NCBI GenBank assembly: GCA_022822855.1
Contig: JAJDYG010000005.1
Span: forward strand, 1-64,000
Origin: Dehalococcoidia bacterium
GTDB taxonomy: Bacteria; Chloroflexota; Dehalococcoidia; Bin125
Length of the DNA stretch: 64,000 bases
Reading direction: 5' to 3'
Shown here in pieces: positions 3,030 through 64,000 of this stretch (its first letter is position 1; each line of letters begins with the position of its first letter). Below the pieces are notes generated by a model. The model did no database searches and was not told where the DNA came from. It worked only from the letters and a program-made list of their open reading frames with translations. A program made the translations under genes and the position numbers.

Positions 3030-5143
3030 GCGCGCTCGATGATCGTGACCTGGCCGCTGGAGCCGTCGACCCGGAGGAGGTCGCCGGAGCGGATCTGCTG
3101 GGTGGCCTTCTGCACGTTGACGACCGCCGGGATGCCGAACTCGCGGGCGACGATCGCTCCGTGGCTCAGGACCCCACCGATCTCCGTCACCACGGCGGCG
3201 GCGAGTGGGAAGATCGGCGTCCAGCCGGGATCGGTGAAGCGTGCGACGAGGATCTGTCCGGGAGTTAGCTCCCGGCCGGTGACCGCCGAGTGAGCGACAT
3301 GCGCCCGACCCTCGGCCTCGCCGTTCGAGGCGGCGATGCCTCGCAGCGTGACCGGCAGGTTGGCCTCCGGTTCATCCTGCCTCGATGGAGACTCGGCCGC
3401 CGCATCGGCGATCGCCGCCTCCGCTGGTTCGGCGGCGGCGCTGCCGATCGGATCACCGAAACGGTCACGCAACGGTGGAGGCTGCGATTGCTTCCACTCC
3501 TCGAACTGCAGCCGGCGCCGGCGGATCCGGCTGCGCATTCGCGCGGCGATCACGGGGTCGCCTGAGCGCCGGGTCAGGGTCGCGAGTTCTTCGAAGAGCA
3601 GATAGTAGACATCGTCGGGATCGTCGATCACGCCGCGCTCGATCCAGCGGGCCGCCAGTTCCTTCCACAGTCGCCGCTGCTGCAGCGAGAGCTCGAGCAG
3701 CGTGAACTTGGGATTCTCGCGAAGGGGCTGCAAGCGCCGGGCCTGTGTGATCTGGGCCTTGAACAGTTGCCAGCGCAGACTGCCCAGCGGATGGCCGGAG
3801 AGTCGCTCGCGAATCTCTTCTTCCGCCTGAAGCCGCGCAGACTTCTGCCGTTCGAGCATCTCGTCGGGATTGTTGCGTTCGGGATGCAGGACGTAGTCGC
3901 GGAAGGTGTCGAGGATGAGCTCCGGCTGCTCGACCCAGCGCGGCTCGGCCGCTTCAAGTTCGCCGGCGGCGCGGTGACCGTACTCGGCGATGAAATCGTC
4001 CAGATCGTCGCGCAGCCAGGTGATCTCGTCAGGCAGGCGGTCGCTGTGAACGGCTGGCCAGAGGCTTTGCGCGTCCTCGGCGCGGACGAACTCCGTTGCC
4101 TGTGAATCCTGCGCCGCCCGTTGGGCGATGCGCCGCAGGGCGATGTTGCCCTCCTGCGTGCGGACTCCGGGCAGGCCCTGCAGCACGGAGAGGACCAGGT
4201 TGCGCATGTTCGAGCCGAGCCAGCGGTCGGTGGCCCAGAGCAGGCCCTGGGCAGCGCTGAACACCGATGCCTGGGCGCGCATCAGAAAAATCGTTTGACG
4301 CTCGCTCTCGGCGCTGGATTGAGTCAACTCGCGGAAGATGTCGCGGTCGCTGAGTTCGGTGGTGTCGAGCGACCTGAGCCGGTCGCGTTCGTCCTCGCAC
4401 GACTGGCGCTCAGCCAGCCAGAGTTTCGGCAACTGGTCCTGATCGCGGAGCCAGCGAAACATGAACGGCAGACTGCCCAGCATGATGCGCCAGTTGATCC
4501 GGGTTGAGCGCTCGCCGTTGCCGCCCGGCCTGACGATCTCTGCGGCCTCCGGACCTCCGACGGCTTCAAGGAAGTGGGCTCCGGTCAGGCCGAGGCGGGT
4601 CTGGAAAATCTCCATGATCAGGCCGATGTTGAAGTAGGCGTAGCCGTCGTAGAGCGCGACGAAACGCCTGCCTTCGGTCCAGTTGCCCCAGGGGGCGTGG
4701 AAGCCCCGGTCGAGCGCGTCGGCAATCACCGACCAGCTCAGCGGGGTCATGACGTTGGGGATGACTTCGCCGGCGTTGGCCCGCGACCAGCGGTCCAGCT
4801 CTCCCTGGATGTGCGGCATCCCGCGGCCGGGGCCGCCGCCCCAGGGCAGCGGCTCGTCGATCAGCCGGGCGTCGCTGGCGTCGATGTTGCCCGATCCGTA
4901 GGCGCGCCAGCGCACGACGGCGGGCCCGCCGAGCGTGCGCTCGGCGTCCAGCAACTCATCGCGAACGGCGCCCAGCGTTTCCGCGTCGCCGTACTCGGAA
5001 ATGCTGATCGGACCACGGCGGGGCAGCGAGACGGAGCGAGGCGCGGCGCCCTCGAAATCGATGCGCAACGCGCTCAGCTCGTGGCCGAGCGGGTCTTCGG
5101 ACCAGGCCAGGCCGCCAATGTGCCCCGTCAGCGTCGAGTTCAT
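3026..5143 (-). CDS. PEP-utilising (swivelling phosphohistidine) domain protein, no ATP-grasp domain
   Basis: Protein of 705 residues. The last ~100 residues form a PEP-utilisers mobile domain with the signature GGVLSHGAIVAREFGIPAVV, whose His is the phosphocarrier residue in PEP synthase, PPDK and rifampin phosphotransferases. The first ~580 residues resemble the substrate-binding part of PEP synthase/rifampin phosphotransferase-like proteins. The N-terminal ATP-grasp domain is absent, so a separate ATP-binding partner or a non-canonical reaction is needed. Its TAG stop is formed by the CTAG end of the adjoining MITE, so the original C terminus may have been altered slightly. The catalysed reaction is unknown. 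Confidence 0.72.
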   Translation of the reverse strand: MNSTLTGHIGGLAWSEDPLGHELSALRIDFEGAAPRSVSLPRRGPISISEYGDAETLGAVRDELLDAERTLGGPAVVRWRAYGSGNIDASDARLIDEPLPWGGGPGRGMPHIQGELDRWSRANAGEVIPNVMTPLSWSVIADALDRGFHAPWGNWTEGRRFVALYDGYAYFNIGLIMEIFQTRLGLTGAHFLEAVGGPEAAEIVRPGGNGERSTRINWRIMLGSLPFMFRWLRDQDQLPKLWLAERQSCEDERDRLRSLDTTELSDRDIFRELTQSSAESERQTIFLMRAQASVFSAAQGLLWATDRWLGSNMRNLVLSVLQGLPGVRTQEGNIALRRIAQRAAQDSQATEFVRAEDAQSLWPAVHSDRLPDEITWLRDDLDDFIAEYGHRAAGELEAAEPRWVEQPELILDTFRDYVLHPERNNPDEMLERQKSARLQAEEEIRERLSGHPLGSLRWQLFKAQITQARRLQPLRENPKFTLLELSLQQRRLWKELAARWIERGVIDDPDDVYYLLFEELATLTRRSGDPVIAARMRSRIRRRRLQFEEWKQSQPPPLRDRFGDPIGSAAAEPAEAAIADAAAESPSRQDEPEANLPVTLRGIAASNGEAEGRAHVAHSAVTGRELTPGQILVARFTDPGWTPIFPLAAAVVTEIGGVLSHGAIVAREFGIPAVVNVQKATQQIRSGDLLRVDGSSGQVTIIERA

Positions 5144-5522
5144 TCATCCAGCATACGCAGCATTGCTCTCGGCGGAGAGCCTCCATTCCAACTCATTGGC
5201 GTCGCCGACGAGGCGGACTTTCAGGTTTCGGGAAGAATTTTTTTCCGGGGCGGTTCGAGCCCGATCTCCAGTAAAACACTGAGGATCGGGGCGAATTCCT
5301 TTTCAGGTCCTTTCAGGTTTTTTCAGCTTTCTCCAGCGGTCTGCAGATGTCCTCGGATCCCGCTGGACGATCCTGTTCGATGCGATCGACCCAATCATAT
5401 GAGAACACAGGTTCCCCTGGGGCGGGCAGTCGGTGGTCAGGTATACAGAGCAGGTGAGAGCGGGCTCAGTCTGAGCGAGCATGTCCCGGTTCTAAACGGG
5501 AAGAAGGAGTGGGCGACGCGAG
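5144..5522. other. Divergent intergenic region, no gene seen
   Basis: About 380 bases between two divergent genes. It holds short T-rich direct repeats (TTTCAGG and variants, 5305-5330), a hairpin GCTCA-GTC-TGAGC near 5465, and a second, TCCCG..CGGGA, near 5485. AAGGAG lies about 13 bases before the ATG at 5523. Promoters for both flanking genes must lie here, but I cannot place them. No riboswitch class or tRNA was recognised. Confidence 0.4.
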
Positions 5523-6491
5523 ATGAGCGCCGAACCGCGGACGGGAAAGTTGCCTACCGAGCTGTTGTTCTCGGTGCTTGGCGGACTGGATTCGGCGAGG
5601 GTGATCCAGGGGCCAGGTGTCGGTTGCGACGCCGCGATCATCGCCTGGGGGAGTGACGCCCTCGTGGCGACCAGTGACCCGATCACCTTCGTCGACGCGC
5701 AGGCCGGCAAGCTCGCCGTGACCGTCAACGCCAACGACGTCCTCTCGGTCGGTGCAGAGCCCCAGTGGCTGCTGGCCACCGTTCTCGCGCCTTCGGGCAG
5801 CCCTGATACCGAGGTCGCATCCCTGCTCCGCGACCTGCGAGACGCCTGCCGGGAGGCCGGCATCGAGCTGGTCGGCGGCCACACGGAACTGACCGACGCC
5901 GTCACGCGCACGGTCGTTTCCTGCACGCTGATTGGATCGGCCCCGCTGGACGAGGTGATCCTCTCCTCAGGCGCGCTCGACGGCGATGTCATCATCCAGG
6001 CCGGAGCGGCGGCGGTGGAAGGGACGGCCATTCTCGGCCATCCCGAGCTGCTCGAGTCACCGGGGATCAGCATCGCCGACGCCGCCCGCGCGCTGCGGAG
6101 CATCGAGGGCGTCCACGCGATGCACGACGTGACCGAGGGCGGCATCGCGACCGCAGCGCTCGAACTGGCCGAGGCGGCCGGACTGGCTCCGCAGTTGACC
6201 GGTGATGACGTGATCTGGTTGCCGGAGACCCTGGCTGTCTGCGAGGAGCGCGGGCTGGACCCGTTGGGGCTGCTCGGGTCGGGCACGCTGCTCGCGGCCG
6301 TGCAGCCTGACGCGGTCGACCGGGCGCTCTCGGAGTTGTCCAACGCCGGTGTGCAAGCCTCAGTGATCGGTCGGGTGAGGGCCGGCTCACGCGCTACACT
6401 CAGATTCGGCGGCCAGATGGGGCCGCTTCCGCGCTTCGAGCGCGACGAAGCGTTGCGGGCGTTCGACGATGCCCGGCGCTCAACACAGTGA
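5523..6491 (+). CDS. AIR synthase-related protein (HypE/PurM-like ATPase)
   Basis: 322 residues with the two-domain AIR-synthase fold shared by PurM, ThiL, SelD and HypE. The N-terminal domain has GVGCDAAIIAWG and an NANDVLSVGAEP segment. The C-terminal domain has GVHAMHDVTEGGIATAALE, the usual MHDVTRGG-type glycine motif. HypE dehydrates a carbamoyl-thioester to make hydrogenase cyanide ligands, but no other hyp or hydrogenase genes are nearby and the C-terminal PRIC motif of true HypE is absent. It overlaps the next gene by 23 bases, suggesting coupling to the AAA/VWA pair. Only the broad family assignment is secure. Confidence 0.75.
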   Translation: MSAEPRTGKLPTELLFSVLGGLDSARVIQGPGVGCDAAIIAWGSDALVATSDPITFVDAQAGKLAVTVNANDVLSVGAEPQWLLATVLAPSGSPDTEVASLLRDLRDACREAGIELVGGHTELTDAVTRTVVSCTLIGSAPLDEVILSSGALDGDVIIQAGAAAVEGTAILGHPELLESPGISIADAARALRSIEGVHAMHDVTEGGIATAALELAEAAGLAPQLTGDDVIWLPETLAVCEERGLDPLGLLGSGTLLAAVQPDAVDRALSELSNAGVQASVIGRVRAGSRATLRFGGQMGPLPRFERDEALRAFDDARRSTQ

Positions 6492-20134: not shown

Positions 20135-22177
20135 TTAGGGATTCACGGTGCGATCGTCGTCCGGCGAGGTCAACCGGCCAAGCGGCGCGAGCTGACCGTG
20201 CAGCCTGCTCGAGGCCGGCACGCGCGGCACGCCGCTCTCTCCGTGTTCGTCGACCTGCTGGCCGCTCGCCACGGCGAGGTCTCGCTCGAACCGGGCCTGC
20301 TCCATTCGCCACTGCCGATGCCGCGATAGCACCTGCTCGGCGTGCTCTTCGCCGATGTACTGCTCGAGGTAGGCTCGCTGGTCCAGCGGATCGAGCGGAT
20401 CGTTGAGACGCGCCCGGCCGTGCTCCTGGACCGCGATTCGCTGCGCCGAGGAGTACGGGTCGATCCAGACGTCGATGTCCAGCGACGGAATCACCGAGGG
20501 CTCGACGCAGACCGTTTCGCGCCGCCGCAGACCTCCGTTCTTGCCCTTGGCGAAGACCCAGATCGGCGCGCCGAACCCGCCCTCCGAGAGCGGCTTCGAC
20601 ATCACCAGCGCCATGTTGCGAAGCATGGCGCGGACGGCCCTGATCTGTGCTCGCTTGAGTTGTTGCACCTGCAGGTTGCGCGACCCGAGCAGCAGGTTCA
20701 GCGTGTGCGGCTGCGTGTTCGGACCGATCTCGCCGCGCTCCACCGTGCCCGAGTCAGGCGCCGCGGCGACCAGTTCGTCGTGCGACATGCGCATGAACTC
20801 GACGAACGCCGGATCAACGCGAGACTCGACCTGCTGGAGCGTAGCTCCTTCCGGCAGCTCCCCCAGCGCCCCTTCGCTCGTCACCTCGACCCTCCGGCCG
20901 TCCTCATCGGTCTGCCACATTCCGTCGGCGAGTCGGATCCCGTACCGCGGATTCACGGTCCGTTCGGCCAGGTGCCGCCCCATCGAGCGCTCGTAGTCGT
21001 AGGCCGGCTTGGCTCGGTAGATGCCCTCCATCGTCGGTTCCCAGCGGCGCAGCATGTCGGGGTGATCGTTGGTGTCCGCCGCCGCGATCGCAAACGGCGG
21101 CATCTCGTAGGGATGCGAATGGGACTTGATCAGCGTCCACTCATGGCGCGGGTCGGTGCGGTCGTCACGCACCAGACCCGAAGCAACGCGGTTGAGGGCG
21201 GCGAGCTCGTAGTACTCCGTCCTCGTCCAGACCGACGCCACCCGAACGCTCTCACCCCAGCCCGCGCCCGGCGCATCCTGCGCGGTCGGAGCGTCGGCCG
21301 CCCCCCAGACCGTCAGCGACGACCCGCCGTCGAACGTGTTCACGCCCAGGTCCAGTTCATCCTGCGCCCGAAGCCGCTCGCGATACTCGTACAGGCTGAC
21401 CTCGCGCAGGACCACCGCCAGTCCGAGCCCGTTGCCCGACCCAAGATCCTCGACGAACGCGAACTGGTCGGGACGGATCACCTCAACGTCCCAGGGAAAA
21501 CCGGCCAGGGCCTGACGCTGTCGATCACGATCCCGGCGGCTGGCCTCCGTCTCGATCCAGGGCAGCGACGGCCCGTCCTCCGAGCGCGCCCGCCGAAACC
21601 GCCGCCGCTCCTCGGGGTCCTCCGGCCGCGACCCGCGTTGCTCCCGCGCCGGCAGCGCCGGCAACCGGTCGGCTGCCCGCTGCCAGTGCAGCACGCCGAA
21701 ACAGAGACAGACCTGCCCGTAGCCCAGATCGGCCTGCAGCGACAGGTGGGAACGCTCTTCAACCTGCCGCAGTCCCTCCTCCAGCACATGCTCGAGGTTG
21801 TCCGCCGCTGTTCGCGACGACGGTGAATCGTCGGGCGGTTCGACGTGCACGCGAAACGGATGCTCGGTCAGACGCTGACGGAGCTGAGACCATGTCCGGC
21901 GCGGCAGATCCGTCTGCCACGGCTTCGTCCCGACGTGAGGCTCCGGGAACTTCGGGTTCGCGTCGCTGCTGTTGTGCAGATGCGTCTCGCGGAATCGAAC
22001 CTGTTCGTGCAGATCCGAGAATCGGCTCAGCACGCTGCGCGGGCGACCCGTCGAAGAGTGCCCGCCGCCAGGCTGTCCAAGCAGATGATTGAGGTCCGCC
22101 TCCGACAGCGTCGTGGCGGAGATTGCTGGCGCCGTTTCCTCGGAAGGAAGCGGAGCTTCATGGGCAAGTACCGGCAT
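20135..22177 (-). CDS. Phage portal-like protein
   Basis: 680 residues, preceded by AAGGAG seven bases before ATG. The C-terminal half has long helices with QQLKRAQIRAVRAMLRNMAL, then an IDVWIDPYSSAQRIAVQEH segment and a helical LDQRAYLEQYIGEEHAEQVL region. The N-terminal part has an α/β clip-like region with DVEVIRPDQFAFVEDLGSG. Length and order suit a large tailed-phage or P22-like portal ring subunit, through which DNA is packaged. No terminase is adjacent; the nearest is 10 kb away on the other strand. The assignment is by overall character, not a diagnostic motif. Confidence 0.5.
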   Translation of the reverse strand: MPVLAHEAPLPSEETAPAISATTLSEADLNHLLGQPGGGHSSTGRPRSVLSRFSDLHEQVRFRETHLHNSSDANPKFPEPHVGTKPWQTDLPRRTWSQLRQRLTEHPFRVHVEPPDDSPSSRTAADNLEHVLEEGLRQVEERSHLSLQADLGYGQVCLCFGVLHWQRAADRLPALPAREQRGSRPEDPEERRRFRRARSEDGPSLPWIETEASRRDRDRQRQALAGFPWDVEVIRPDQFAFVEDLGSGNGLGLAVVLREVSLYEYRERLRAQDELDLGVNTFDGGSSLTVWGAADAPTAQDAPGAGWGESVRVASVWTRTEYYELAALNRVASGLVRDDRTDPRHEWTLIKSHSHPYEMPPFAIAAADTNDHPDMLRRWEPTMEGIYRAKPAYDYERSMGRHLAERTVNPRYGIRLADGMWQTDEDGRRVEVTSEGALGELPEGATLQQVESRVDPAFVEFMRMSHDELVAAAPDSGTVERGEIGPNTQPHTLNLLLGSRNLQVQQLKRAQIRAVRAMLRNMALVMSKPLSEGGFGAPIWVFAKGKNGGLRRRETVCVEPSVIPSLDIDVWIDPYSSAQRIAVQEHGRARLNDPLDPLDQRAYLEQYIGEEHAEQVLSRHRQWRMEQARFERDLAVASGQQVDEHGESGVPRVPASSRLHGQLAPLGRLTSPDDDRTVNP

Positions 22178-23627: not shown

Positions 23628-24317
23628 CTAGCCCTCGGCCAGTTCCTTGACCAGCTCGATCAGCGCGTCGGCGTTCGTCGGGCCGCGTTCTCCGTTGACG
23701 ACCACCGTCGGTGTGCTGGCGAATCCGCGCGAGACCGCGTCCGTGTGCTGACCGTAGATCCGGTCGAGATGCGCCCGATCGTCGATGCACTGGCCGAACT
23801 CATCCGTGTCCAGCCCGAACTCTGCCGCCACGGCAATCGCACCGTCGCGCGTGTAAGCGTCGCGGCTCGGGCCCTCGAAGTAGTAGTCGTGGAACTCCCA
23901 CCAGTGGTCCTGGTCGCCGGCGCACTCCGTCGCCAGCGAGGCCATCTCCGACGACAGCCCGTGATTGATGATGTGGTGGTACTCGAACCGGGCCAGCCCG
24001 GTGGCGATCAACTCTTCCTCGATGCGCGGCCCAACCTGGGTCTCGAAATGGCGGCAGCCGCCTCAAAGGAAATCGGAGTACTCCTGGATCACCACCGGCG
24101 CATCGGGGCTGCCCAGGGACGCTCGGTCGCGGATCACCTGCACCCGCGCCTCTTCTTGAGCCGGCTCCGTCTGCTCCACCTGTTCAACTTGCTGCGCCTC
24201 CGCTGACTGTTGAGCCGCGGCCGATTGCTCGCCGTCGTCTCCACCGCCGCAGGCAGCGATCAGCACCGCCGAGACGACGAGCCCCAGCGCTCCGATCCAT
24301 ATCCCAGCTCTCTTCAT
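23628..24317 (-). CDS. Selenocysteine-containing DsbA-like lipoprotein, copy 4 (UGA read-through)
   Basis: 229 residues when TGA at 24063-24065 is read as Sec85. The N terminus is a lipoprotein signal (LIAAC, Cys23), then an acidic Gln/Glu linker. The thioredoxin-fold strand VVIQEYSDFL leads into U-G-G-C, then RHFETQVGPR. A second Cys pair (TECAGDQ, GQCIDD) and the cis-Pro loop TPTVVVNG complete a DsbA_4/Thioredoxin_4 domain. Homologues have Cys at the Sec position. The likely role is thiol-disulfide exchange outside the membrane. It is last in the array, two bases after the preceding stop, with AGGAAGG before ATG. Confidence 0.85.
24026..24044 (-). promoter_or_regulatory. SECIS-like hairpin of selenoprotein copy 4
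   Basis: In the mRNA GAGACCCA-GGU-UGGGCCGC starts 18 nt after the UGA. The inner CCCA/UGGG pairs and two outer pairs hold, with two mismatches. The GGU apex is at the same distance from the UGA as in the other three copies, but this is the weakest stem. Confidence 0.6.
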
Positions 24318-24319
24318 GA

Positions 24320-25342
24320 TCAGCCTTCCTCTTCCAACTCTGCCGCGAGCGCCAGCACCTGGCCGATCAGCGCGTCCGCGACGATCGCCCCGCCCTGATC
24401 ATTGATCCTGACCGTCGGCGTGCGATTGAAACCGTTCGCAACCGCCTGGCGATGCTGTCCCTCGACCAGTTCGAGGTACTTCTCACTGTCCAGGCATTGC
24501 CTGAACTCCTCGGTATCGAGCGACAGCGACGCGGCAAACGCGATCGCGCCCTCGCGCGAGAAGTCCCACTGGCTCATGTAGTGGTCGTGGAAGTCCCACC
24601 ACGCGCCCTGGTCGCCGCCGCACTCCGTCGACAGCGCCGCCAGCATTGACGGCGGACCATGATTGATGATGTGCGAGTACTCGAACCGCGCCACTCCGGT
24701 GCGAATCAGTTCATCGATCACGCGCGGCTCAACCTGAGCCGCGAATCTCCGGCAATTCGGTCAAAGGAAATCCGAGTACTCGGTGATCACGATCGGAGCG
24801 TCGGGATCGCCCACCGTGTTCCGATTGGCAAACAACCCCGCCCGATGTCCCGACTCGATGATCATCCCGACCATCGCCTCCTCTTCGACATCCTCCACCT
24901 GGTCCTGACCCGATTCTTGCTCAGCCTCCGTTTCCTCGGCCCCGTCCTGAGCGGCGACCTGCTCAGTATCCCCCGCCTCCCCGTCCCCGCCCTGAGCGGG
25001 GCCCCGCTCCTCACCCTCGGGTTCCCCGTCCCCGCCCTGTGCGGGGACCCGTTCCCCGTCGCCCCGATCCTGTTCGCCTGGTCGAGCATCCCCAGACTGC
25101 GTGGCCTCAGGCTGCGACGCCTGCGCCTCGTCGGCAGCCGCGACTGATTGCTCCTGCTCCACCGACTCACTCTGACCCGCCGCATACGCGGTCGCCGACT
25201 GCTCCTCCTGCTGCTCCTGGACTTGAGCCGCCGCCGATTGCCGAGGTTCCTCAGAGTCCGACGAGCACGCCGCCAGCAGCAGGACCGCCGACACTGCCGC
25301 GCCCGCCAGCACGACTCCTGCTCGTCTCATTTGCGCCAACAT
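24320..25342 (-). CDS. Selenocysteine-containing DsbA-like lipoprotein, copy 3 (UGA read-through)
   Basis: 340 residues with TGA at 24761-24763 read as Sec194. Signal peptide and lipobox LLAAC (Cys26). The linker is ~130 residues, acidic and repeat-rich (GDGEPEGEERGPAQGGDGEA). The catalytic strand IVITEYSDFL is followed by U-P-N-C and RRFAAQVEPR. Downstream TECGGDQ, RQCLDS and TPTVRINDQ match the other copies. The start overlaps the previous stop as TGATG with AGGAGG seven bases before. This is the longest linker of the four, which would hold the redox domain furthest from the membrane. Confidence 0.88.
24724..24742 (-). promoter_or_regulatory. SECIS hairpin of selenoprotein copy 3
   Basis: In the mRNA GCGGCUCA-GGU-UGAGCCGC, an 8-bp perfect stem (9 bp with the flanking C-G), begins 18 nt after the UGA. 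The GGU apex lies ~26-28 nt from the UGA, within the range known for bacterial SECIS elements bound by SelB. It is encoded inside the AAQVEPR segment. Confidence 0.85.
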
Positions 25343-26133
25343 CAGCTTCCCTCCTGGTTCTCCGCCGCTTCGGCCGCCGCGTGTACCTGCTCGATCAGAC
25401 CGTTCAGCGATCGCGCCCCCGGCTGACCGTTGATCCGGAACGTCGGCGTGCCTCGGACGCCCTCCGAGATCGCCTGCTGCTGCATCTGCAGGATCCGCTC
25501 GGCGTGTTCCTCGTTGTCGACGCACTGCGTGAACCGCGCGACGTCCAACCCTTCCTCTCGAGCCAGCTCGATCGCGCCGCCGCGAGTGAAACTGCGAGCC
25601 TGCGCTTCGAGCAGATAGGCGTCATGGAACTCCCACCAGGCGCCCTGATCGCCCGCGCATTCGGTCGCCATCGCGGCAAACCGCGAGGCCGTTCCGAAGA
25701 TGATGAAGTGCCGGTACTCGTACCGCGCGACGCCGGTCTTGATCAGTTCCTCCATGAGCTGCGGCTCAACCTGAGCCGCGAATCCACGGCAGCTTGGTCA
25801 CTGGAAGTCCGAGTACTCCACGATCAGCACCGGCGCCTCCGGATCGCCGACCGAGTTGCGCAGGAAGGCCAATCCCTCCCGGTGCCCGAAGTCGATCACG
25901 CCCGTCGCTTCCACGCCGTCCCCGACTCCATCGGGGGCCTGCCCTGCCTGTTCCCCGACTTGTTCGGGGACCCGCTCGGTCCCCTCCTGCATGATCGACG
26001 CCTCGCGCTCGACCCGCTCGCTCCGCACCGTGCCTGTCGAGTCCGGCTCATCCTCGACCCCGCCTGAGCCGCAGGCCGATAGCAGCACGCCCAGCGTCAA
26101 CCCACACGCGAGTAACCCCAGTGCGAATCTCAT
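25342..26133 (-). CDS. Selenocysteine-containing DsbA-like lipoprotein, copy 2 (UGA read-through)
   Basis: 263 residues with TGA at 25798-25800 read as Sec112. Lipobox LLSAC (Cys21), then a short linker containing a PAL-C-encoded ERVPEQVGEQ. The strand VLIVEYSDFQ precedes U-P-S-C and RGFAAQVEPQ. TECAGDQ, TQCVDN and the cis-Pro loop TPTFRING follow. The next gene starts on its stop codon (TGATG). In Cys-type homologues the active site is usually CPYC-like after an FSDFQ-type strand, which fits the Sec placement exactly. Confidence 0.88.
25761..25779 (-). promoter_or_regulatory. SECIS hairpin of selenoprotein copy 2
   Basis: In the mRNA GCGGCUCA-GGU-UGAGCCGC, identical to the copy-3 core, 18 nt after the UGA. 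It has a perfect 8-bp stem with a GGU apex. Confidence 0.85.
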
Positions 26134-26142
26134 GCCCCGAGC

Positions 26143-26982
26143 CTACTCTCCGATCGCTCGCCCAACCGCCTCTTCAATCGCCTCAAACGTCGCATCGATC
26201 CGTTCGCCGTTGACGAACACCGTCGGCGTGCCCGGCACGCCCCGCGATTGCCCTTCGTTGCGCGAGGCGATGACCAGGGGCAGGGTCTCCCCTTCGGTCA
26301 GGCATTGTTCGAACGCGCCGTACTCGAGACCCTCGAACTCGACCTGGCGCCGGATTCCCGCCTCCGTGAAGAGCGTCGCGTCGCCGGCCATGAACCGGTC
26401 GTGCAGCGGCCAGAAGGCGCCCTGTTCCGCGGCGCAGGCCACCGCGACGGCTGCGTACAGCGCCGGGTCGCCCAGATGCGCGAAGTAGCGGAACTCGTAG
26501 CGGGCAATGCCGGTCGCGACGAACTCACTGACGATGCGCGGCTCAACCTGGGCCGCAAACCACTGGCAGCCGCCTCAAGTGAAATCGCCGAAGTGCTCAA
26601 TCAGCACCGGAGCATCCGGCTCCCCCAGCACATTCCCCTCCGAGCGAACCCCTTTGTGCTCGCCAACAATCTCCGCCGGAAGCTCAACGACCGCCTGTTC
26701 CTCGTCGTCCCCGACTTGATCGGGGACCTGCTCCGCCTGTTTCCCGACTTGATCGGGGACCTGCTCCGCCTGTTCCCCGACTTGTTCGGGGACCCGCTCG
26801 GCCTGTTCCCCGACTTGTTCGGGGACCCGCTCGGCCTCCCCCTGATCCTGCTGCTCAGAAACCGTCGCCTCCCGCTCAGCCCGCTCCGAAGTCGCCGTCC
26901 CCGTCCCCTGAGGCTCCGCCCCCGACCCACAAGCAACCAGGAACAGCCCCACAGCCGCCAAGACGATCAGCAGACGTTGCAT
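26143..26982 (-). CDS. Selenocysteine-containing DsbA-like lipoprotein, copy 1 (UGA read-through)
   Basis: 279 residues with TGA at 26575-26577 read as Sec136; first gene of the operon. Lipobox FLVAC (Cys18). The linker contains four 11-residue repeats (AERVPEQVGEQ/AEQVPDQVGKQ) encoded by tandem PAL-C units. The strand VLIEHFGDFT leads to U-G-G-C and QWFAAQVEPR. The later part diverges most (ACAAEQG, EQCLTE, TPTVFVNG). It ends 9 bases before copy 2. All four genes form one co-directional unit of about 3.4 kb. Confidence 0.86.
26538..26556 (-). promoter_or_regulatory. SECIS-like hairpin of selenoprotein copy 1
   Basis: In the mRNA GCGGCCCA-GGU-UGAGCCGC, 18 nt after the UGA, with seven of eight stem pairs (one C·A mismatch) and the same GGU apex as the other copies. 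Confidence 0.78.
26707..26838. repeat. Four tandem 33-bp PAL-C units in the linker of selenoprotein copy 1
   Basis: Each unit holds the palindrome TCCCCGACTTGATCGGGGA, or the TTGTTCGG variant, with spacer CCTGCTCCGCCTG or CCGCTCGGCCTG. The period of 33 bases is 11 codons, so the frame is kept. A single unit also lies in copy 2 (25955-25975), and PAL-C occurs at 30.18, 30.53, 38.85, 39.61 and 39.73 kb. Confidence 0.88.
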
Positions 26983-27025
26983 AACGCCAGCCTACCGCGC
27001 AACCCCCGATTCCAACCCTCCGATT

Positions 27026-27197
27026 CCGATGCCCCGTGCTTGACACGGGGCCCAGAGCACCCAACTTCGCGAGCGAGACGACGTCAGTCTCACCTCAACC
27101 TTCGCCAGCAGATCCCCCCACCGTCCCAGCTGAGGATCACCACAGAGCTCCGCACCACCCTCGAGGTCTGGGCCCCGTGTCAAGCACGGGGCATCGG
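27026..27197. repeat. Direct repeat with PAL-A ends, right copy after selenoprotein operon
   Basis: About 170 bases bounded by two inverted PAL-A palindromes. It contains CACCTCAACCTTCGCCAGCA and ACCGTCCCAGCTGA, both repeated at 27541-27741 on the other side of the GIY-YIG gene in the same orientation. Confidence 0.85.
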
Positions 27198-27226
27198 AGG
27201 GGGAGGGCGGGGTATCGGACTCCCCT

Positions 27227-27540: not shown

Positions 27541-27741
27541 ATTCCGATGCCCCGTGCTTGCCTGCCCCTGGCTTGACCAGGGGACACGGGGCCCAGAGCA
27601 ACCAACTTCGCGCGCGAGACAACGTCCATCTCACCTCAACCTTCGCCAGCAGATCCCCCACCGTCCCAGCTGAGAATCACCGCAGAGCTCCGCACCACCC
27701 CCGAGGTCTGGGCCCCGTGTCAAGCACGGGGCATCGGAACG
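27541..27741. repeat. Direct repeat with PAL-A ends, copy upstream of GIY-YIG gene
   Basis: A near-identical partner of 27026-27197. Its first palindrome is enlarged by a nested second palindrome (GCCCCTGGCTTGACCAGGGG) inserted in the PAL-A loop, also seen at 40.4 and 49.9 kb. Confidence 0.85.
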
Positions 27742-28980: not shown

Positions 28981-30747
28981 TCACGAGGCGCTCACCCCCC
29001 CTCTGCCTTCGGCGTCTCCCCCCTCAAGGGGGGAGAGAGCTGTTGGCCGGGACATCTCGTCCCGCAGCTGCTGCAGACCCATCGGTCCCAGCTCCAACGC
29101 GGCCCGATGGAACGCCTTCAGATTGAACGCGTCGCCGAGTGACTGTCTGGCCGATTCGCGCGCGGCCAGCCACTCCCGCTCGCCGACCTTGTAGGAGATC
29201 GCCTGACCCGGCCAGCCGAGGTACCGATCTACCTCGCTGGCCAGCATCTTCTCGGGGAAGAAGGAGCGCTCGATCAGGAAGGGCAGGGCCAGCTCCGGCG
29301 TCCAGGTCTCGCCGCCGTGGTATTCCTCGCGCTCCGGGATCGGCAACTCCAGGTGCATGCCGATATCGATCACTACCCGCACCGCCCGAAGCGCCTGGCT
29401 GCTCAGCAGACCCATGTAGTAGGCCGGATCCTCCAGGTAGCCCAGCTCCGCCATCAGGCGCTCGGCGTACAGCGCCCAGCCCTCGACATAACCCGACGTC
29501 CCGGCCAGCAGCCGCTGATAGCGCGTCAGCTCCTCGCCCAGGTAGCGCGTCGTCCCGATCTGCAGGTGATGCCCCGGCACGCCCTCGTGATAGCAGACCG
29601 AGAGCTCGCGCCAGAGCGGGAAGCGCGTCTCGCCGCCGGTCGGATACCAGGTCCGGCCGGGACGCGAGAAGTCCTCCGACGGCCCCGTGTAGTACATCGC
29701 CAGCGCCCCGCCCGGCGGCGCGATCATCGCCTCGATCTCCTGCACCGGCTCGGCGATGTCGAAGTGCGTGCCCAGCAGCGCCTGCATCGTCTCGTCCTGC
29801 GTCTGCTGCATCCATTCGCGGAAGGCGTCCTCACCCTCGATTGCGCGGGCGTCGTCCGACTCCAGGATCGCAATCGCCTCGGCCGCCGTCGCGCCCGGCG
29901 AGATCCGGTTCGCCGTCTCCGCCATCTCCGACTGGATCCGCCAGACCTCTTCCCAGCCCCACTGATACGTCTCGTCCAGGTCCAGCTCGATCCCGTTGAA
30001 CCCCCGCGACGCCGCCTGGTAACGCTCCCGACCGACCGGATCCTTTGGATTCGCCCGCGGCAGATACTCCGTCTCCAACCAGTCCCCCATCGCCGCATAG
30101 CCCTCCGCAGCAGCTCGCGCATTCGCACCGCCGTCGATCCCTAGGTCATCGCACAAGGCTTGGAAGAAGCCAGTCCCCGATTTATTCGGGGACCCGCTCG
30201 GCCCCTGCCCCGACCACACCCGACACTGCTCAATCCCGCCCCGCACCTGGCGCTGCGCCACCACGATCCCCGCGTCCATCCCCGCCGCCAGCGACGATCG
30301 GTAGCGCTCCAGCGCCTCCGGCACCGCGCCCATCCGCTCGACGATGTTGGCGTGATCCTCCTCCGTCTCCCGAGGCATCAGGTCGAACACCTGCCGAGTG
30401 TTCTGCAGCGGCGACGCCAGGATGTTCAGCGAGCGCAGATGCTCCTGCTGAGCCTCCAGCTCTGCCTCATACTCAAACCGCTCCAGCATCACATCGCGGG
30501 CCACCCGGTCGCGCTCCGGCCTGCCCCCGACTTGATCGGGGGTCTCGATGTTCAGTTGCCGAAGCGCGGCCTCGGCCTGCCGACGTATCGCCGACCGCTC
30601 GGCATGTCCATCCGGCGAGTAGTCCGTCAACTCGGTCTCGCGCCCCGGAATCCCCAGCCCCGTCGCCATATTCGGACTCGCCGCCGCCAGGGCATCCACG
30701 TACCAGTCCGAGATCGCCGAAACAGTCGAGAGGTCAGGAGTAGTCAT
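28981..30747 (-). CDS. DUF885-family metallopeptidase-like protein
   Basis: 588 residues. The HExxxGHH-type metal motif appears as CYHEGVPGHHLQ, then GTSGYVEGWALYAERLM and the EVDRYLGWPGQAISYKVGE signature near the C terminus, all typical of DUF885 (M3/M32-like zinc peptidase fold). Three palindromic repeats are translated: PAL-C at residues ~70 (TPDQVGG) and ~185 (GSPNKSG), and PAL-B forming the last ~17 residues and the stop. MTTPDL at 30747 is preferred over the upstream ATG at 30777. Confidence 0.85.
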   Translation of the reverse strand: MTTPDLSTVSAISDWYVDALAAASPNMATGLGIPGRETELTDYSPDGHAERSAIRRQAEAALRQLNIETPDQVGGRPERDRVARDVMLERFEYEAELEAQQEHLRSLNILASPLQNTRQVFDLMPRETEEDHANIVERMGAVPEALERYRSSLAAGMDAGIVVAQRQVRGGIEQCRVWSGQGPSGSPNKSGTGFFQALCDDLGIDGGANARAAAEGYAAMGDWLETEYLPRANPKDPVGRERYQAASRGFNGIELDLDETYQWGWEEVWRIQSEMAETANRISPGATAAEAIAILESDDARAIEGEDAFREWMQQTQDETMQALLGTHFDIAEPVQEIEAMIAPPGGALAMYYTGPSEDFSRPGRTWYPTGGETRFPLWRELSVCYHEGVPGHHLQIGTTRYLGEELTRYQRLLAGTSGYVEGWALYAERLMAELGYLEDPAYYMGLLSSQALRAVRVVIDIGMHLELPIPEREEYHGGETWTPELALPFLIERSFFPEKMLASEVDRYLGWPGQAISYKVGEREWLAARESARQSLGDAFNLKAFHRAALELGPMGLQQLRDEMSRPTALSPLEGGDAEGRGGVSAS

Positions 30748-30895
30748 GGTTGTTGCTCCAATCCACCCCATTATCAACCCTCCGCGCTCGAAGTCCGAAG
30801 CGAGGCAGACTGTCTCCTGTAAGCGACATTGGTCGCTCTGCCCCCCGCGTCAAGCGCGGGGGATCGGTGTGCGGGGGCGGGTCCTCCGATTCGAT

Positions 30896-38829: not shown

Positions 38830-38899
38830 GTGGGGGGAGGCCGAGCGGGTACCCGATCAAGTCGGGGACAGGTAGAATATGGGAATTGAGTGGAGTGAT

Positions 38900-39710: not shown

Positions 39711-39767
39711 TTCTGGCATCGGGGACGGTCCCCCGATCAAGTCGGGGACAGGTCCTCGATGCCAGAA
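39711..39767 (+). promoter_or_regulatory. Nested hairpin upstream of the GTG-start secreted protein
   Basis: Outer arms TTCTGGCATCG (39711-39721) and CGATGCCAGAA (39757-39767) are perfect over 11 bases. A PAL-C palindrome (CCCCGATCAAGTCGGGG) sits in the loop. The right arm abuts the AAAGGA ribosome binding site of the gene at 39779, so folding could hide it. A further PAL-C (GTCCCCGAATGAATCGGGGA) is at 39604. Confidence 0.5.
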
Positions 39768-62968: not shown

Positions 62969-64000
62969 CTAGACACGGGGTTTCTCGGGCGCTTGCACGC
63001 TCAGGTGGCCGGCGTCGGCAGGTTCGATGACTCGGGCGACGGGGGTGGCGATCACGCCTCGTCGTTGGAGTTCGTGGATGAGGTGTGGGGCTTCGATGAT
63101 TCCGGCGGCGATGAGGAGGCCTCCGGAGGTCTGGGGGTCGAAGAGGAGGGCTTCCTCGAAGGTGGTGAGTTCTCGTTGCGCGTCGACGGTGAGGCGGGCT
63201 CCGTAGTAGTCCCGGTTGCGGGACTGTCCGCCTGAGCCGAATCCGGCGGCGACGGCCTCGGCGAGTCCGCCGAGGGCCGGGGCTGCTCCCAGGTCGATCT
63301 CGATCGCGGCGTTGCTGAGTTCGGCCATCTCGTGCAGGTGTCCGGCGAGGCCGAATCCGGTGACGTCGGCGATGGCGTGGATTCCCTGGGCGAGATCGGG
63401 GTCGGAGGCGGCTTCGGCGGCGTCTCGGTTGAGGGTCATCATCTGTGCTACGGCGGCGTTCCAGTGGTCATCGGAGACCGCGCCCTGCTGGTTGGCTCCG
63501 ATCAGGACTCCGGTGCCGATCTCTTTGGTCAGGATGATGGTGTCGCCGGGCTGCGCGCCTCCGGTGGTGCGGATGAGGTGTCGGGCGACTTCTCCGGTGA
63601 CGGCGAGGCCGTACTTGGGCTCTTCGTCGATGATCGTGTGTCCTCCGGCGATGACTGCGCCTGCTTCGCGGACCTTGTCGGCTCCGCCGCGGAGGACATC
63701 GGCGATGACATCGGGTGGGAGATTCTCGGGGAAGGCCGCGATGTTGAGGGCGAAGAGGACTCGGCCGCCCATGGCATAGACGTCGGACATGGCGTTGGCG
63801 GCGGCGATTGCGCCGAACTGGTGCGGGTCGTCGACGAGCGGGGCGAAGAAGTCGAGGGTCTGGACGAGGGCGCGCTGGTCGTCGATGGCGTAGACGGCGG
63901 CGTCGTCGGGGCGCGCGAGTCCGACGAGCAGCTCGGGGTGCTCGTCGGGCGGGAACTGGGGACCGAGATGGCTCAGCACGTGAGCCAGGCCTTCGGGGCC
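62969..64000 (-). CDS. selD: Selenophosphate synthetase SelD (N terminus outside window)
   Basis: The visible part begins GPEGLAHVLSHLGPQFPPD, runs through RPDDAAVYAIDDQRALVQTL, DFFAPLVDDPHQFG, AAANAMSDVYAMGG, AGGHTIIDEEPKYGLAVTG and IADVTGFGLAGHLHEMAEL, and ends near DPQTSGGLLIA. All are SelD hallmarks. SelD makes selenophosphate from selenide and ATP for Sec-tRNA synthesis. The frame is open to the window edge, and the catalytic Cys/Sec loop, normally ~10-20 residues before this point, lies beyond it. Its presence supports Sec read-through in the 23.6-27.0 kb operon. Confidence 0.92.
   Translation of the reverse strand, partial: GPEGLAHVLSHLGPQFPPDEHPELLVGLARPDDAAVYAIDDQRALVQTLDFFAPLVDDPHQFGAIAAANAMSDVYAMGGRVLFALNIAAFPENLPPDVIADVLRGGADKVREAGAVIAGGHTIIDEEPKYGLAVTGEVARHLIRTTGGAQPGDTIILTKEIGTGVLIGANQQGAVSDDHWNAAVAQMMTLNRDAAEAASDPDLAQGIHAIADVTGFGLAGHLHEMAELSNAAIEIDLGAAPALGGLAEAVAAGFGSGGQSRNRDYYGARLTVDAQRELTTFEEALLFDPQTSGGLLIAAGIIEAPHLIHELQRRGVIATPVARVIEPADAGHLSVQAPEKPRV

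Follow-up and report, generated by a model that had tools for sequence, protein, structure and literature searches.

Four tandem genes for predicted selenocysteine-containing lipoproteins with a DsbA-type fold in a Dehalococcoidia bacterium

Layout of the four-gene array

The stretch of DNA analysed here (the window, 64,000 nucleotides) comprises positions 1 to 64,000 of contig JAJDYG010000005.1 (assembly GCA_022822855.1) from a Dehalococcoidia bacterium of the phylum Chloroflexota. Between positions 23628 and 26982 its minus strand carries four adjacent genes for predicted lipoproteins, each with a single in-frame TGA at which selenocysteine (Sec) insertion is predicted. All four encode, in the same order, a signal peptide with a lipobox, a low-complexity linker and a Thioredoxin_4 domain. 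Coordinates, strand and domain structure agree with the original prediction, which was made from the letters of the window and described four lipobox-bearing genes whose thioredoxin fold is split by one TGA. The intergenic gaps of the array measure 9, -1 and 2 nt, the spacing expected of an operon with translational coupling.

26143..26982, minus strand: gene 1 (slot 1), lipoprotein with a Thioredoxin_4 domain and UGGC active site; lipobox LVAC; stop codon TAG
25342..26133, minus strand: gene 2 (slot 2), lipoprotein with UPSC active site; lipobox LSAC; stop codon TGA (25344-25342), one base of which is shared with the start codon of gene 3
24320..25342, minus strand: gene 3 (slot 3), lipoprotein with a long low-complexity linker and UPNC active site; lipobox LAAC; stop codon TGA (24322-24320)
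23628..24317, minus strand: gene 4 (slot 4), lipoprotein with UGGC active site; lipobox IAAC; stop codon TAG

The predicted Sec codons, assigned by conservation and comparison with homologues, are the following.

26575..26577, minus strand: in-frame TGA of gene 1
25798..25800, minus strand: in-frame TGA of gene 2
24761..24763, minus strand: in-frame TGA of gene 3
24063..24065, minus strand: in-frame TGA of gene 4

In each gene the TGA takes the position of the first Cys of a CxxC motif, which gives the four active sites (UGGC, UPSC, UPNC and UGGC) as first proposed. Exactly three Cys follow it at fixed spacing (+3, +47 and +89 to +92), together with a TPT motif; this is the normal C terminus with further cysteines that had been claimed. 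When the TGA is read through, the four proteins match Pfam Thioredoxin_4 (PF13462) with 80-101 bits against a gathering cut-off of 23.2, and the match spans the TGA. A profile search of the genome found Thioredoxin_4 matches only in the four array genes, each with one TGA.

Reading of the internal TGA codons

Each internal TGA is followed by a putative selenocysteine insertion sequence (SECIS), a hairpin whose stem begins 18 nt after the TGA. The element folds as GCGGCUC-AGGUU-GAGCCGC, with a G present in the apical loop (AGGUU). The four hairpins are listed with their scores under a covariance model, R1.

26538..26556, minus strand: SECIS hairpin of gene 1, GCGGCCC-AGGUU-GAGCCGC, with one C.A mismatch; 62.8 bits
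25761..25779, minus strand: SECIS hairpin of gene 2, GCGGCUC-AGGUU-GAGCCGC, 7 bp, perfect; 63.9 bits
24724..24742, minus strand: SECIS hairpin of gene 3, GCGGCUC-AGGUU-GAGCCGC, 7 bp, perfect; 65.4 bits
24026..24044, minus strand: SECIS hairpin of gene 4, GAGACCC-AGGUU-GGGCCGC, with a compensatory C-G in place of the U-A of slots 2 and 3 and a weaker lower stem; 52.1 bits

In an alignment of 54 sequences, pairing holds in 94.7% of the stem cells; slid controls give 30-41%. Both sides of the stem have changed in 10 cells (UA to CG or GC, at columns 27/35), AU replaces GC at the stem base in some sequences, and stem covariation reaches 0.102 against 0.045 in shuffles. Two codons inside the hairpin are almost invariant, Ala codon 8 being GCT in 37 of 41 cases (6.7% elsewhere in the same genes) and Val codon 10 being GTT in 37 of 37 (9% elsewhere), counts that shared ancestry inflates but whose contrast with the other codons of the same genes is independent of ancestry. 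On this comparison, codon choice in the hairpin is pinned at the RNA level. A search of the host genome with R1 gave 52-65 bits for the four genes and 21 bits for the next match, a gap that exists partly by construction, R1 having been trained on the array genes; this circularity counts against the SECIS assignment, as does the folding of single sequences, in which the hairpins of genes 1 and 4 do no better than shuffles (those of genes 2 and 3 do, with z about -2). An Rfam search of the 64-kb window returned no match, the SECIS elements of the array included.

Weaker R1 matches of 25-28 bits occur in several members of the genus (G012:C2:266123-266175, G010:C28:2880-2932, G005:C66:65925-65977, G003:C6:3312-3361 and G004:C24:15824-15873) and possibly belong to another selenoprotein family with a related SECIS. 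Sec homologues from other Chloroflexota (L095, L105, L107, L117, L137, L146, L150, L152 and L164-L174) have a different sequence behind the TGA, for example CTGGCGC-GGG-GCGCCAG, which suggests that their hairpins changed or arose separately.

The machinery for Sec insertion is present in the host genome (2.87 Mb in 42 contigs, about 95% complete). The original prediction had named selA, selB and selC as the genes to look for, and all three were found: the Sec-specific tRNA (selC, 70.2 bits, anticodon TCA), SelB (345 bits) and SelA (519 bits), to which SelD (349 bits) is added. The selD gene itself has an in-frame TGA, and its 3' part lies in the window.

62969..64000, minus strand: 3' portion of selD (selenophosphate synthetase), whose Sec TGA falls immediately outside the window (C29, about 64013-64015)

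The position of the TGA is conserved well beyond the host. Among 165 distinct homologous places, taken from Chloroflexota and from other groups, it is Sec in 90, Cys in 75 and another residue in none, and the fourth position of the UxxC/CxxC motif is always Cys; the proposed check that homologues carry Cys there thus returned Cys or Sec only. The array was sought in 148 related genomes, including 15 members of the genus. Fourteen of the 15 have an array of three to four Sec genes, all with TGA, the single exception being a fragmented metagenome-assembled genome (MAG), G003. Two further genera of the family have such Sec genes as well, one (G017) with three of them in a span of 5 kb, the other (G016) with two single ones. 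The codons after the TGA are under purifying selection (median ratio of nonsynonymous to synonymous divergence, dN/dS, 0.14-0.29), and species differ widely at synonymous sites (median dS 0.75-0.98).

Could the TGAs nevertheless be true stops or sequencing errors, leaving short lipoproteins or decayed genes with the downstream open reading frames as remnants? Translation with table 11 does break every array gene into two open reading frames. However, all 55 Sec genes collected in detail from the family, from independent MAGs, have TGA in the same place and none has a sense codon there; selection acts on the codons downstream, the hairpin is conserved and the Sec machinery is complete. Sequencing error, one of the conditions named beforehand as able to overturn the claim, is excluded by the retention of the TGA in independent assemblies, and a stop or pseudogene is ruled out along with it by conservation in 14 of 15 genus genomes and by dN/dS, so that we leave this explanation a vanishingly small probability. 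An in-frame TGA flanked by conserved sequence on both sides is also what would be seen if the codon had been reassigned to a standard residue (Trp in code 4 or Gly in code 25). TGA is not simply reassigned here, because it also terminates genes 2 and 3, in keeping with the earlier remark that it serves as an ordinary stop elsewhere in the window, and about half of the array orthologues end in a terminal TGA as well. These terminal codons rule out a change of code; moreover, the remaining homologues have Cys at the internal position, never Trp or Gly, and the genome encodes SelB and a Sec-specific tRNA(TCA); reassignment is as hard to credit as the reading as stops. The four genes are predicted bacterial selenoproteins, with Sec insertion backed as far as comparative genomics permits. 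By established SelB biology, SelB carrying Sec-tRNA would bind the hairpin and insert Sec at the internal TGAs, and translation would end at the final TGA of gene 2 and of gene 3, neither of which has the hairpin.

Why should one operon hold four such genes? In a tree with all four window genes, slots 1, 2 and 4 form clades at 100/99 support and slot 3 at 89/96; therefore the four orthologous slots are, by this phylogeny, older than the genus, and the duplications predate it. It is possible that the array is a dosage device, in which four near-equivalent copies boost one activity, for example in peroxide or electrophile defence in a sponge, and the anchor, linker and active-site architecture are indeed alike in all four. 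Yet genes 2-4 are only 37-43% identical to gene 1, and the slots, separate clades older than the genus, each have their own xx dipeptide between U and C, which specialisation fits better; we consider the dosage explanation improbable. Four diverged and individually conserved slots suggest different substrates. An unlinked second Sec gene of the array family was observed in 13 genus members (L068, L069 and L070, about 4800-5800) and was not found in the host genome; its active site is of the DPF-UPxC type in the three that were read.

Fold, redox partners and direction of function

AlphaFold2 modelled the domain of gene 2 with confidence (pLDDT 96.8). Among solved structures the nearest folds are those of Corynebacterium TsdA/DsbA, BdbD and Wolbachia alpha-DsbA1 (TM-scores of 0.82-0.85, normalised to the query), all of them thiol-disulfide oxidoreductases. 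Judged by the TPT motif and the fold model, the proteins have a DsbA-type fold with a presumed cis-Pro loop. The description "DsbA-like" in the original prediction therefore holds for the fold; an oxidase function of the DsbA type is not to be assumed, because the genus is without detectable DsbB or VKOR. Taken together, the array is best explained (at a rough probability of 0.85) as an operon of four paralogous predicted selenolipoproteins that would act as SECIS-directed extracytoplasmic thiol-disulfide oxidoreductases. The proteins would be exported, lipidated and held outside the membrane by flexible Q/E-rich linkers. Sec would be the attacking nucleophile and the downstream Cys would resolve, with a mixed Sec-S-protein species and then a selenenyl-sulfide as intermediates.

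In which direction would such proteins work? A CcdA/DsbD_TM gene was found in all 15 genus genomes and DsbB or VKOR in none of them (Pfam PF02600 and PF07884, with matches in the control searches). Because of this distribution we lean to a reductive role, and give slightly better than even odds to proteins that are fed by CcdA and work in the reducing direction, as reductases/isomerases or thiol peroxidases. With less certainty than the catalytic steps above, CcdA may pass electrons across the membrane to these substrate-specific enzymes. The N-terminal dimerisation domain of DsbC/DsbG was not found in the four genes, whose matches are to Thioredoxin_4 and DSBA only; the N-terminal part of the proteins consists of the lipobox and the low-complexity linker. 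Several observations weigh against the reductive direction. The conclusion that DsbB and VKOR are absent depends on two Pfam models, the CcdA gene does not adjoin the array, and no redox partner gene was found among the conserved neighbours of the 15 array loci. Furthermore, the nearest solved relatives are oxidases or oxidase-like, and some Cys pairs are present in exported lipoproteins.

Alternatively, the array proteins may be disulfide-forming oxidases of the DsbA/BdbD type that require neither DsbB nor VKOR, with Sec re-oxidised directly by peroxide, oxygen or another oxidant, or else by an unrecognised membrane partner. BdbD, Corynebacterium TsdA/DsbA and Wolbachia alpha-DsbA1 as closest folds speak for this, as does the general chemistry of selenols, which peroxides oxidise much more rapidly than they do thiols, and two is the commonest non-zero Cys count in exported lipoproteins. 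On the other hand, no known re-oxidant of DsbA was found in the 15 genomes, in all of which the reductant CcdA occurs, and the Cys-parity bias of exported lipoproteins is not significant (an even number in 9 of 14, p = 0.21, in 1.26 Mb of genome), having looked stronger in a smaller first sample. We regard an oxidase role as the less probable of the two directions, though a serious one. The CcdA/DsbD_TM gene, the only one found in the genus, has the look of a circular permutation (L186:4624-5484, equivalent to G000:C8:40123-40938, minus strand): model positions 33-214 lead and the first transmembrane segment, SFISPCVLPLVPIYLGHLAG, is placed last, an order that recurs in several other genus genomes. 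A wider and more speculative proposal is a selenium-based extracytoplasmic redox system without DsbB or VKOR, in which four specialised, membrane-anchored Sec-DsbA paralogues would replace the DsbA-DsbB/VKOR pair in sponge-associated Chloroflexota, either fed by the circularly permuted CcdA or re-oxidised by peroxide or oxygen; we hold it as a tentative idea, with the odds against it.

Genomic setting and relation to known systems

Downstream of the array the neighbours in the 15 loci are unrelated genes. Two neighbours are kept in most of them, and two palindromic elements are scattered through the window.

28981-30777, minus strand: DUF885 protein, whose gene precedes the array, co-oriented with it, at 13 of 15 array loci
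20135-22177, minus strand: 680-aa protein without a Pfam match, kept near the array in 13 loci
26708-26827, 25952-25972, 25919-25939, 25029-25049, 30174-30194, 30524-30544, 38848-38868 and 39728-39748: sites of the palindromic repeat GGTCCCCGANCAAGTCGGGGA
27020-27200 and 27560-27740: examples of the many intergenic sites of a second palindromic element, CCCCGTGCTTGACACGGGGC

In some species gene 1 follows immediately on the end of the DUF885 gene, which may be transcribed together with the array there. Genes 1-3 carry the repeat GGTCCCCGANCAAGTCGGGGA within the parts that encode their linkers, and it is also present in other places of the window and the genome, with 39 copies counted in 1.26 Mb; the frame in which it is read differs between genes, and it is absent from most orthologous arrays. 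The second element was counted 17 times in the window and 79 times in 1.26 Mb.

The host bacterium has relatives among the Chloroflexota that live with sponges. Matching records are Chloroflexota/Dehalococcoidia MAGs. Several of them (the RHO, SB06 and COS series) are presumably sponge-derived. Bin125, a further matching MAG, comes from the sponge Aplysina aerophoba, and a survey reported enrichment of SelA and SelB in sponge symbionts of several phyla (PMC5649159). The array offers concrete target genes for this enriched machinery. Selenoproteins cost the cell a dedicated tRNA, an elongation factor and a supply of selenium, yet four diverged Sec paralogues have apparently been kept since before the genus radiated, a sign that selection strongly favours Sec for a redox task outside the cytoplasm. 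With four internal and two terminal TGAs in one operon, the locus is also a natural test set for SECIS function, as well as a test case for extracytoplasmic disulfide handling without DsbB or VKOR.

The protein family itself is known. The best NCBIfam match of all four genes is NF041057 (116.4, 143.8, 142.4 and 135.4 bits), the Rcas_1661 family thioredoxin-like (seleno)lipoprotein, which reviews list as a "DsbG-like" selenoprotein (PMC13188914, PMC9312934). Because these scores lie below the curated cut-off of 190 bits, the array genes are, by profile score, relatives and not members of this equivalog. Both share the lipobox, the linker, the Thioredoxin_4 domain and Sec or Cys at the first CxxC position. 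In a sample of 400 genomes of the phylum, NF041057 proteins occur across Chloroflexota with and without the TGA, mostly as single genes; among the matches listed, tandem Sec pairs are present in at least two genomes (G375 and G412; L172, G412:C300), which belong to a different Chloroflexota family. The array differs in having three to four diverged paralogues in one operon and its own SECIS sequence. Three Cys-type domains of the array family stand in one frame of about 660 aa in at least two genomes of another Chloroflexota family (G482:C1:3511757-3513667 and G277:C161:16985-18901), perhaps a fused counterpart of the array.

According to the original prediction, Sec-containing Dsb-like proteins had been predicted in metagenomes before, and so they had; to this NF041057 and its "DsbG-like" label in reviews have to be added. 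DsbA-like selenoproteins (DsbA 1-3 and DsbG-like) have been predicted in marine metagenomes (Zhang and Gladyshev, PMC2398784), and UxxC DsbA-like selenoproteins in complete genomes too (PMC1794560). Like the array proteins these are UxxC thioredoxin-fold oxidoreductases; unlike them, they appear in these reports as single genes on reads or genomes, with no array or anchor mentioned in the passages concerned. A literature search, whose scope was papers outside subscription, did not turn up any account of selenolipoprotein paralogues in an array, in line with the earlier statement that no described array of four membrane-anchored copies in one operon was known. What appears to be new is the conserved array of Sec paralogues in a genus with CcdA and without detected DsbB or VKOR.

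Among the solved proteins, Bacillus subtilis BdbD, Corynebacterium diphtheriae TsdA/DsbA and Wolbachia alpha-DsbA1 resemble the array proteins in fold and catalytic layout but have Cys where the array has Sec, and BdbD pairs with a DsbB-type partner, of which none was found in the array genus. Operons with several selenoprotein genes are also known, including SAO (six selenoprotein genes), Tso (three), frhA-frhD-hdrA-glpC (four) and grdA-grdB (PMC13188914). Like the array these place several selenoprotein genes in one operon; they join different families of one pathway, whereas the array brings together four paralogues of a single family.

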